DNA from: Streptomyces sp. JH14
GTDB taxonomy: Bacteria > Actinomycetota > Actinomycetes > Streptomycetales > Streptomycetaceae
DNA length: 64,000 bases
Assembly (NCBI RefSeq): GCF_029428675.1
Contig: NZ_JAJNEL010000001.1
Span: 744,001-808,000, forward strand
Reading direction: 5' to 3'
The notes beneath the pieces were generated by a model. It made no database searches. It had not been told where the DNA came from and saw only the letters and a list, made by a program, of their open reading frames with translations. Below are positions 6,211 through 8,747 of the stretch, in pieces. Made by a program: the position numbers and the translations under genes. Every line of letters starts with the position of its first letter. Positions within the stretch are counted from its first letter, which is position 1.

Positions 6211-7629
6211 TCAGGCGGCGGGGGTGTCGGGACCGATCCTGCTGCGTACGGCGGTCTGCACCTCGGCCTCCTCGGCCGGATCGGCGGCCAGCCGGCGCAG
6301 CCGTTCGGCCACCCTGATGTCACCGGTCTCCGCGTGGAGCGCGGCGACCTCCCGGGTGGTCTCCTCGCAGTCCCACAGGCATTCGACGGCGAAGCCGGTG
6401 ACGAAGGAGGGGTCGGTGGCGGCAAGTGCGCGGGCCGCCCGGCCCCGCAGATGGGAGGAGGACGTCTCCCGGTAGATGTGGCGCAGGACGGGTGCGGCGC
6501 AGACGATGCCCAGCCGGCCGGCGCCGTCGACCAGGGTCCACAGGCGCGGGGCGTCCGGCCCTTCGCCGCGTACGGCGTCGCGCAGGGCGGCGAGGACGAG
6601 GGAGGCGTCCTGGGCGCCGCCCCGGCAGGCGAGCACTCCGGCGGCGGCGGCCCCGAGCGTGTCCGGCCGCCGGGCCCAGCGCCGGGCCCGGTCCACCGCC
6701 GCGTCGCCGCACATCCGCTCGAAGGCGGCGACGGCCGCATCGGCGACGGTGCGCGACGGGCCGGCCGCGGCGGCCTCGATCAGGTCCAGCACGGCCGGGT
6801 CCCTGGCCTCGGACAGATAGTGCAGCGCGGCGCAACGGGCGCCCTCCGGGCCGCTGCGGGCCGCCTCGATGATCACCGGCAGGTCCTCGGGGCCGGCGAC
6901 GGCCGAGAGACAGCGGGCAGCCGGCACGTGCAGCAGGCTGCCGCGGTCCAGCCCCTGCTGGGCCCAGTCGAAGACGGCCTGGACGCTCCAGCCGGGTCGT
7001 GGGCCACCGGGCCGCATCTGCCGCTGCCAGCGGTCGAACGAGCCCTGTTCCGAGGCTGACCTGACCCTGGCGCCGACCGCTTCGCGCGGATCGTCCGCCC
7101 ACAGCCGCCAGGGCCGGGGTTCGAATGCGTCCCGCACGGCGGCCGCGAGCTCGGCCGCGCCCTCCTCGGTGGCCGGGAATCGCGCCAGTACGGGCACGGC
7201 GAGGGCGCGGAGTCCGGCGTCGTCGTCGCGCAGGGCCAGTTCGTCGAGGGCCCACGCCCAGTTGGCACCGGTCGCCGCGTACCGCCGCAGCAGGGCCAAG
7301 GCGTCGCCGCGACCGTACGAGGCGAGGTGGCCGAGGACCGCGAGGGCCAGGCCGGTCCGTGAGTCGTCCGTGTCGACGTGGTCGGCGGGATCGCTCAGGT
7401 GCCGCTCGATCTCCTCGATGCCGCCGTCGAGGTCGAGGTACAGGCGTGCGTAGTAGAGGGAGCGGTTCTCGACCTGCCAGTCGTGCCGCGGATCGCTCAG
7501 GACGCAGTGGTTGAGGGCCGCGAGGGCCTCGGCGCGCGGGGCGGCGAGCGCGTGGAGCGTGCCGTCGCCGCGGCCCCTCTGCAGCAGGCCGAGCAGGGTG
7601 CCGCTCGGCGCTATGAACGGATCGAACAT
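6211..7629 (-). CDS. HEAT-repeat protein
   Basis: A 472-residue protein made of repeated Ala/Leu-rich helical pairs of the HEAT/PBS-lyase type, for example GPEGARCAALHYLSEARDP and GRAARALAATDPSF. No enzymatic motif, signal peptide or membrane segment is visible. Such solenoids usually bind proteins. The ATG at 7629 has a GAGG about ten bases upstream. The gene lies just downstream of a possible short poly-Cys reading frame and hairpin, which could control it. Function unknown; I recognise only the repeat architecture. Confidence 0.82.
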   Translation of the reverse strand: MFDPFIAPSGTLLGLLQRGRGDGTLHALAAPRAEALAALNHCVLSDPRHDWQVENRSLYYARLYLDLDGGIEEIERHLSDPADHVDTDDSRTGLALAVLGHLASYGRGDALALLRRYAATGANWAWALDELALRDDDAGLRALAVPVLARFPATEEGAAELAAAVRDAFEPRPWRLWADDPREAVGARVRSASEQGSFDRWQRQMRPGGPRPGWSVQAVFDWAQQGLDRGSLLHVPAARCLSAVAGPEDLPVIIEAARSGPEGARCAALHYLSEARDPAVLDLIEAAAAGPSRTVADAAVAAFERMCGDAAVDRARRWARRPDTLGAAAAGVLACRGGAQDASLVLAALRDAVRGEGPDAPRLWTLVDGAGRLGIVCAAPVLRHIYRETSSSHLRGRAARALAATDPSFVTGFAVECLWDCEETTREVAALHAETGDIRVAERLRRLAADPAEEAEVQTAVRSRIGPDTPAA

Positions 7630-7680
7630 GGGAAAAGCCTCACATCAAGCTGTCGACGCAACCGGGACTGTGCAGTTCCA

Positions 7681-7751
7681 AGTGCCGGGGGGCACTACGC
7701 CGCGCAGCAACATGATCGGCCGACCGCCGTCTTCTGCTTGGTGTAGACCAT
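7681..7751 (-). promoter_or_regulatory. Candidate poly-Cys leader peptide and hairpin upstream of the HEAT-repeat gene
   Basis: On the minus strand an ATG at 7751, three bases after GAGG, opens an 18-codon frame that ends at 7695 and reads MVYTKQKTAVGRSCCCAA; three consecutive Cys codons (TGT TGC TGC) precede Ala-Ala-stop. The frame stays open upstream, and a GTG start giving about 44 residues is also possible. The stop overlaps a six-base-pair hairpin, AGTGCC-CCCC-GGCACT, at 7681-7696. The HEAT-repeat start codon lies about 50 bases further on. The arrangement resembles the cysteine-responsive attenuator frames known in mycobacteria. The peptide could instead be a free-standing small protein. 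I have no homology evidence. Confidence 0.35.
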
Positions 7752-7846
7752 CTTCCTCTGCCTCTCGTCGGTGGCCCGGATCGGGCCCGCGACGTCATGA
7801 TGACCCAGCCATTTCGTCACCGCGACCACATTTACCGCGAACCCGT

Positions 7847-8239
7847 TCAGCGGGGGCCGAAGAGTTCCAGCAGGTCGGCCTTGCCGAACATGCGCGCGGT
7901 ATCCACCGCGGAGGGTGTTCCGGCCGCCGGGTCGGCGCCTGCGGCGAGCAGGGCCCGGATCACCGCGCCCTCGCCCTTGAAGACGGCTCCGGCGAGCGGC
8001 GTCTGCCCGCGGTCGTTGGCCCGGTCCGGATCGGCGCCACGGCCGACGAGTGCGGTGACCGCCGCGGCGTGGCCGTGATAGGCGGCGAGCATCAGCAGCG
8101 AATCGCCCCGGTCGTTGGTCAGATCGGCGGGCACACCGGCGTCCACGTACGCGGCGAGCGTCTCCGTCTCCCCGTGGCGCGCCAGGTCGAAGACCTTGGT
8201 CGCCAGCTCCACGACCTCGGGATCTGGGGCTTCGCTCAT
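7847..8239 (-). CDS. Small ankyrin-repeat protein
   Basis: A 130-residue protein of three to four ankyrin repeats, with the diagnostic segments SLLMLAAYHGHAAAVTALVGRGAD and GQTPLAGAVFKGEGAVIRALLAAGAD. No signal peptide or membrane helix is seen, so it is probably a cytoplasmic protein-binding module. The ATG at 8239 is preceded by GGAAGG at good spacing; a longer frame upstream has no comparable ribosome-binding site. The partner is unknown. Confidence 0.85.
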   Translation of the reverse strand: MSEAPDPEVVELATKVFDLARHGETETLAAYVDAGVPADLTNDRGDSLLMLAAYHGHAAAVTALVGRGADPDRANDRGQTPLAGAVFKGEGAVIRALLAAGADPAAGTPSAVDTARMFGKADLLELFGPR

Positions 8240-8552: not shown

Positions 8553-8747
8553 ATGATCCTTTCCATGTCAGGCGTCGTCATCCTCGGCATCATCGTCTTC
8601 CTGTTCTTCAGGAAGGACGGTCTGAAGGCCTCGCACGCCATCGTCACCGCCATGTTCGGCTTCTATCTGGCCGGCACAGCCATCGCACCGAGCATCACCG
8701 CGGGCGGCGCGAGCCTGGCCGGCCTGCTGGGCGGGATCAAGTTCTGA
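8553..8747 (+). CDS. smeA: SmeA, small sporulation membrane protein
   Basis: A 64-residue protein with two hydrophobic segments (about 5-22 and 29-60) separated by FRKDGLKAS. In S. coelicolor the equivalent small gene immediately precedes an FtsK/SpoIIIE-like gene; SmeA localises to sporulation septa and targets SffA there. The identification rests on size, two-helix topology and adjacency, with the downstream gene 38 bases away. The ATG follows AGGAGA at normal spacing. I infer a role in chromosome partition and spore maturation. Confidence 0.85.
   Translation: MILSMSGVVILGIIVFLFFRKDGLKASHAIVTAMFGFYLAGTAIAPSITAGGASLAGLLGGIKF

Follow-up and report, generated by a model that had tools for sequence, protein, structure and literature searches.

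We propose that the short frame ahead of the HEAT-repeat gene is a translated leader ORF, and that the mRNA surrounding it is probably a translational attenuator, that is, a coupling device, for that gene; all of the evidence is computational. The window, by which we mean the whole stretch of DNA that was analysed, comprises 64,000 nucleotides from Streptomyces sp. JH14. In the proposed mechanism the leader ORF and a block before the HEAT start would be the 5' and 3' arms, respectively, of a long stem masking the HEAT Shine-Dalgarno site. With the leader free of ribosomes, HEAT translation would be low. Initiation on the leader, or a ribosome halted within its first codons, would disrupt the helix made by codons 3-6 and leave the HEAT start free.

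A conserved short frame, the proposed leader ORF, ahead of the HEAT-repeat gene

A preliminary description of this DNA, made from the letters alone, had placed an 18-codon frame with a ribosome site at 7681-7751. That frame was borne out; it lies on the minus strand, from 7751 to 7695, and reads MVYTKQKTAVGRSCCCAA followed by a stop codon. The stop had been put at about 50 bases before the next start; it is indeed upstream of the HEAT start codon (7629), but the distance in the window sequence is 65 bases. The leader and the genes around it are as follows.

7695..7751, minus strand: leader ORF, MVYTKQKTAVGRSCCCAA and stop, 18 codons; homologues in 102/105 loci
7752..7766, minus strand: leader ribosome-binding region GAGAGGCAGAGGAAG, directly 5' of the ATG; identical or nearly so in most loci
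6211..7629, minus strand: HEAT-repeat gene, 472 aa, the proposed target; weak Pfam match and predicted fold
7847..8239, minus strand: ankyrin-repeat gene, upstream; syntenic in leader-bearing loci
8553-8747, plus strand: gene for a 64-aa membrane-like protein, divergently oriented; weak DUF2304 match, below the cut-off

A homologous short frame was found at the same position in 102 of 105 orthologous HEAT loci, which were drawn from two partly overlapping sets of 25 (L001-L025) and 80 (L031-L110); L012 and L092 are an example of the overlap. The second set includes two S. griseus strains that carry this locus, BIG105 (L049) and NCTC13033 (L054); ribosome profiling of S. griseus is described in PMC8914203. 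Among the three loci without the frame, L051 is at a contig end, and L020 and L023 have different upstream DNA. Recurrence at the same place in so many orthologous loci puts the leader frame beyond chance. A further 64 loci were picked by a match to the peptide profile (60) or by the presence of the conserved block described below (4), and 63 of them had both frame and block; the exception, L233, matched the peptide profile by chance, about 16 kb away from a HEAT fragment. The combined 165 locus records, in which some places occur twice (e.g., L119/L232, L131/L235, and L144/L234), gave 110 distinct ORFs and 95 distinct peptides, with the ATG, the ribosome site, and an in-frame stop kept.

The 95 distinct peptides were 17-23 codons long, with length differences of whole codons, and the 110 distinct ORFs used all three stop codons (73 TAG, 25 TAA, and 12 TGA). 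The spacer from leader stop to HEAT start varied from 44 to 464 bases and occurred in all three phases across the 165 records. Frame breakage in orthologues, a check that the preliminary description had offered, came out in favor of the frame: L051, at its contig end, was the only block-bearing record without one, in a count that scored a broken frame as absent.

At E 0.01 or better, the peptide profile matched 117/150 genomes of the genus, a count in which G064 is a chance match and G094, with a weaker score, is a true copy; at E 1 all 150 genomes match, mostly as noise. A search of the organism's own genome for further copies of the leader gave one strong match only, the next being at E 0.62. 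No description of the leader was found in the published literature, as judged by titles and abstracts among the matches listed. The eight attenuator leaders of S. lividans in the list given in part of PMC8079986, which is a list of amino-acid metabolism genes, omit it. The kept start, ribosome site, stop, and frame, together with the pairing to the HEAT Shine-Dalgarno block, support the view that a putative leader with a regulatory role precedes the HEAT gene.

Predicted pairing between the leader and the HEAT start region

The block 5' of the HEAT start, CCCGGTTGCGTCGAC(A)GCTTGATGTGAGGC, is nearly invariant, and its complementarity to the leader is conserved. The pairing elements are listed below.

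7736..7744, minus strand: 5' strand of helix A, codons 3-6 ACACCAAGC, one base unpaired; partner 7642-7650
7708..7711, minus strand: 5' strand of helix C, GUUG, inside the Cys codons; partner 7652-7655
7699..7705, minus strand: 5' strand of helix B, the end of the last Cys codon plus the Ala-Ala codons; partner 7656-7662
7637..7666, minus strand: conserved block CCCGGTTGCGTCGACAGCTTGATGTGAGGC, complementary to the leader ORF; contains the HEAT Shine-Dalgarno site
7638..7641, minus strand: HEAT Shine-Dalgarno core GAGG, mostly paired in the predicted fold

The RNAalifold consensus, computed from 76 distinct anchored rows out of 102, paired codons 3-6 (ACANCAAGC) with GCUUGAUGU as helix A, and the last Cys and Ala codons (GCGCGGC) with GUUGCGU as helix B. 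Helix C (GUUG with CGAC) is absent from that consensus and was put in by hand; each of its four pairs forms in 92 to 95 of the 102 rows. The 15 consensus leader-block pairs formed in 97.6% of cells (76 rows), as compared with 23-41% of cells in a control with the partners slid by 1-3 columns. When 39 distinct held-out rows were scored, 560/585 cells of the 15 pairs and 134/156 cells of helix C formed, the count being lowered by rows L203 and L234, which look one codon misaligned.

Helix A had a distinctive pattern of change. Its unpaired base occurred as all four letters among 62 peptides, and the five inner paired columns showed only A/G or C/T changes that kept the pair; one held-out row, L190, breaks one inner pair. 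At columns 26-30 of this helix, 13 tree events were keeping and 0 were breaking. Alignments with shuffled columns folded worse than the real ones, both for the block (z -2.5 and -2.8, with 6 and 2 of 400 shuffles at least as good) and for the leader (z -4.3 and -4.5, with 1/400 each at least as good); the rows are related, which makes every P value in the analysis too small.

Four loci (L036, L060, L069, and L084) have 222-464 bases between leader stop and HEAT start and yet retain the block, which is identical in L060 and L084 and altered in L036 (by one base) and L069. Retention of the block beyond such long inserts is explained if the open loop tolerates changes in length. The inserts themselves were estimated from the usual spacer at roughly 150-400 bases, and by eye some hold repeated or inverted sequence, possibly a tolerated repeat element.

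Other measures did not separate the pairing from its controls. Two-sided compensation was seen in 3 cells, a number within reach of the control in which the 3' arms were swapped (mean 0.7, best 4); two-sided changes are scarce because the block, which is the 3' arm, hardly varies. After the swap, cells still paired almost as often (mean 97.3%, best 97.6%). When events across all paired columns were scored against the consensus partner, 47 kept and 30 broke a pair, which is not clearly different from the 82/58 transitions/transversions at unpaired columns. The energy of the leader-block duplex over the whole frame, relative to synonymous recodings, had a mean z of only -1.1 (85 rows), a measure that is noisy in GC-rich sequence; the 15 pairs, having been chosen on the native consensus, carry a bias for native sequences over recodings. 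Rfam gave no match over the gathering score for the region. Pairing that hides the downstream Shine-Dalgarno site was found by computation, with weak two-sided covariation.

Opening of the HEAT start in a folding model

The opening energy of the whole start region was adopted as the measure after stability and unpaired-probability measures had failed to separate the states. The window sequence folded alone was no stabler than its shuffles (z 0.18), and the mean unpaired probability of the four Shine-Dalgarno bases was 0.22-0.36 over the ribosome positions, with no switch.

With no ribosome on the leader, opening the HEAT start cost 11.5 kcal/mol (mean of 45 distinct sequences). The cost fell to 7.0-7.3 kcal/mol with the P site on codon 1, 3, or 4 and to 8.2-8.5 kcal/mol with the P site on codon 5, 7, or 9; for a ribosome at codon 1, 3, 4, or 5 it was lower in 38 to 43 of the 45 rows. 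A single ribosome on codons 13-17 gave no opening (11.7-12.6 kcal/mol), and on the last codon the cost was 11.8 kcal/mol. In the opening-energy model, opening depends on ribosome position, with relief for codons 1-9; the unpaired-probability scan showed no switch.

Native sequences started from a higher cost (11.5 kcal/mol) than synonymous recodings (9.8) or shuffled frames (9.1), and their drop at codon 4 was larger (4.5 kcal/mol, vs. 2.5 for recodings and 1.2 for shuffled frames); the native drop exceeded the recoded one in 37/45 and the shuffled one in 40/45. Judged by this model, native sequences seem built to keep the HEAT start closed and to free it once a ribosome occupies the first codons. 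Release of this kind agrees with translation coupling or attenuation, not with a simple stall at Cys codons. We infer that in cells the leader is translated, shares a transcript with HEAT, and works as a switch.

The Cys codons and the leader peptide

The preliminary description had likened the frame to the leaders of cysteine-sensing attenuators. The conserved frame and the pairing support the regulatory leader ORF in that proposal, but the cysteine-sensing part fared poorly: many orthologues have lost the Cys run, the hairpin at the leader stop is not general (see below), and a ribosome modelled on the Cys codons leaves the HEAT start closed. Loss of the run had itself been offered as a check. 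Among the 95 distinct peptides, the longest Cys run was 3 in 26, 2 in 42, and 1 in 27, so that the triplet is found in 26/95 and no adjacent Cys residues in 27/95, which speaks against the cysteine reading; a conserved run of Cys codons was not found.

We consider it unlikely that the leader is a cysteine-responsive attenuator, in which a shortage in tRNA-Cys charging would stall a ribosome at TGT or TGC and open the HEAT start, either directly or by way of a queue near codon 4. At least one Cys beyond residue 9 is present in every one of the 95 peptides, and pN/pS reaches its lowest values in the frame at the first two Cys columns (0.14/0.46 and 0.18/1.19). A pair of ribosomes at codons 14 and 4 brings the opening cost to 7.3 kcal/mol, 4.2 lower than without ribosomes, and polycysteine leaders of mycobacteria are cysteine-responsive attenuators according to the parts of PMC9031893 and PMC13236596 that deal with them. 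Set against these points are the missing runs, the failure of a single ribosome on codons 13-17 to open the HEAT start, a HEAT gene that matches no Cys-pathway family, and helix C, which accounts for four of the six bases in two Cys codons.

The choice of codons bears on this last point. Of the 110 distinct ORFs, 99 use TGT as the first late Cys codon, whereas TGT makes up 79 of the 633 Cys codons in HEAT genes; helix C requires a U at that codon, and TGT supplies it. Where the second Cys codon is replaced by CGC or CGG (Arg, 8/110) or by TGG (Trp, 4), helix C is retained; replacement by CAC (His, 5/110) loses one of its four pairs. The Cys-codon run seems to belong mainly to an RNA stem and is not an established sensor of cysteine. 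In L006, L014-L016, and others, TTG TGT (Leu-Cys) stands in place of TGT TGT, and GTTG is retained, shifted by two bases.

A related reading, which we regard as quite unlikely, is a leader that senses cysteine or ribosome traffic. A stall at the conserved TGT would park a second ribosome about 10 codons behind, on the hiding helix, and such queuing would open the scaffold-like HEAT gene; the two-ribosome model above corresponds to this arrangement.

That the peptide itself is the product, as a small Cys-containing protein or a modified-peptide precursor, is highly improbable, and the functional Cys-rich peptide that the preliminary description had offered as an alternative loses ground. The frame is conserved and every version has at least one Cys, but over the whole frame pN was 0.265 and pS 0.289 (pN/pS about 0.92), so that purifying selection on residues was not seen over the frame as a whole; the two Cys columns and the final Ala column had low values. 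The residues of the 95 distinct peptides are not strongly conserved, and much of the conservation tracks RNA pairing, not residues. At codons 4 and 5, for example, the amino acids vary and the silent sites vary little (pN 0.37/pS 0.09 and pN 0.26/pS 0.02): codon 4 encodes Thr, Ser, Ile, or Asn with a third base that is nearly always C, and codon 5 encodes Lys, Arg, or Glu with a third base that is nearly always G, the high third-position GC of the genus contributing to this low silent variation. In addition, the peptide had no match in Pfam (1 version) or NCBIfam (3 versions), and no recognised modifying-enzyme gene was found among the neighbours looked at.

The HEAT gene, its neighbours, and leader-free loci

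The HEAT gene product matched PF13646 in Pfam at E 0.0016, below the curated cut-off, and had no NCBIfam match. Its predicted structure is an all-helical solenoid (mean pLDDT 73, pTM 0.48) for which Foldseek returned generic repeat solenoids, with one match at E 0.001 or better. No Cys-pathway family in Pfam or NCBIfam matched it, in agreement with the earlier remark that the target is not a usual Cys-pathway gene. A HEAT orthologue was present in 25/25 genomes of the genus, own genome included, and a match was found in 60/61 genomes of the family. The ankyrin gene precedes HEAT in 78 of the 80 named Streptomyces loci, the other two (L051 and L054) being at contig ends, and the gene for the 64-aa membrane-like protein is syntenic next to the ankyrin gene in most named loci.

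We also collected 63 extra loci from genus genomes with weak or no peptide match and from other genera of the family. The block was present in 4 of these, all with the leader; neither was found in the other 59, among which the HEAT start was placed unreliably in 3 (L140, L169, and L171). The ankyrin gene was present but apart from HEAT in 18/18 tested genomes without the leader, and none of the leader, the block, or the upstream palindrome described below was found within 700 bases 3' of the ankyrin gene in the 12 of 16 fetched loci in which its end was placed. Since the ankyrin gene is separate from HEAT where the leader is absent, the leader goes with the ankyrin-HEAT arrangement.

Most of these 59 leader-free loci share CGGAAATCCCGTTGCCA...CGGATGCTGACCTC directly 5' of the ATG. 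By eye the region reads TTGCCA-17-GATGCT-6-ATG and is possibly a promoter for a leaderless mRNA. The arrangement CGGAAATCCCGTTGCCA-N-CGGATGCTGACCTC-ATG was noted in L120-L130, L132-L139, L141-L143, and most of L145-L181.

These loci bear on a further alternative, namely that a promoter or protein-binding function accounts for the conservation of the block, its complementarity to the leader being incidental. The promoter-like stretch of the leader-free loci is about as far from the HEAT start as the block is, and it has CCCGTTGC in common with the block's CCCGGTTGC, and the block is conserved beyond what pairing needs. We nevertheless judge this alternative to be very unlikely: no sigma-70-like site was found in the window segment, and by eye no TAnnnT hexamer is rightly placed; the block carries a ribosome site; and the leader positions that face it keep pairing in the held-out rows.

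Hairpins and a palindrome around the leader

Three further elements were found on the same strand.

7681..7696, minus strand: hairpin AGTGCC-CCCC-GGCACT, 6 bp, overlapping the leader stop; in the length-variable loop and also in the predicted fold
7773..7787, minus strand: hairpin GGCCCG-ATC-CGGGCC, before the leader ribosome site
7794..7804, minus strand: palindrome GTCATCATGAC, conserved; possible protein-binding or promoter element

The first of these is the small hairpin that the preliminary description had placed at the leader stop, and it is present as described (7696..7681). Similar stop-codon hairpins were seen by eye in the near relatives L003 and L032; because the stretch that bears it is highly variable (44 to 464 bases), the stop hairpin is not a general feature. 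No terminator-like site was found in 7560-7960 in a search for an intrinsic terminator between leader and HEAT.

The hairpin before the ribosome site showed stem-keeping changes between loci (GGCCC/GGGCC, GGTCC/GGACC, and GCGGACCGT/GCGGTCCGC), and a stem of at least 6 pairs was found in 78/109 distinct 35-base segments, as compared with 38/109 shuffled ones. The palindrome is embedded in highly conserved sequence 5' of the leader, GTAAATGTGGTCGCG...GGGTCATCATGACGTCG. A 17-base palindrome pattern with flanks had 1 exact match in the own genome, 5 with 2 mismatches, and 74 in total with at most 3 mismatches; the reversed pattern, used as a control, had 38 matches. The alignment also gave the impression of an ECF-type promoter, GAAAT/GGAAC-N16-CGTC, upstream of the leader.

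Comparison with known leader systems

Polycysteine leaders in mycobacteria are reportedly cysteine-responsive attenuators, as described by Canestrari in 2020. As characterized in parts of PMC9031893 and PMC13236596, these short-ORF attenuators are leaderless and precede cysteine genes. The present leader shares with them a short upstream ORF, adjacent Cys codons, and an actinobacterial host. It differs in its conserved ribosome site, in a Cys run that is not conserved, and in a target with no Cys-pathway match. A leaderless start of the leader ORF looks unlikely from the conserved ribosome site before its ATG. Because the Cys run is not conserved, the target is not a Cys gene, and a leaderless start is unlikely, we do not file this leader with the polycysteine kind.

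In the leuA leaders of Actinobacteria (the LEU element), leader codons have been proposed to pair with the Shine-Dalgarno box of the next gene, according to part of PMC1262725. In that element, as set out there, it is the Leu run that pairs, with leuA as the target and a proposed pseudoknot; here pairing involves the first codons and the Cys-Ala end, and a HEAT-repeat gene is the proposed target.

Translational attenuators of the erm/cat type are examples of leader-ORF attenuation. They share with the present locus a leader ORF that pairs near the downstream Shine-Dalgarno site and a leader ribosome that opens the region, here in the model; the locus differs in having no known inducer and in its modelled opening by ribosomes on the first codons. 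A general account of translational attenuators is given in part of PMC13236596. In the folding model, the locus works like leader-ORF translational attenuators and would be an added example of that kind.

The target has no known link to amino-acid metabolism, which raises the question of which translation event the leader reads. A run of Cys codons can arise from RNA pairing and mislead searches for amino-acid attenuators. The locus contributes a further leader ORF, one that apparently governs a HEAT-repeat gene; the leader itself occurs in only part of the genomes of the family.
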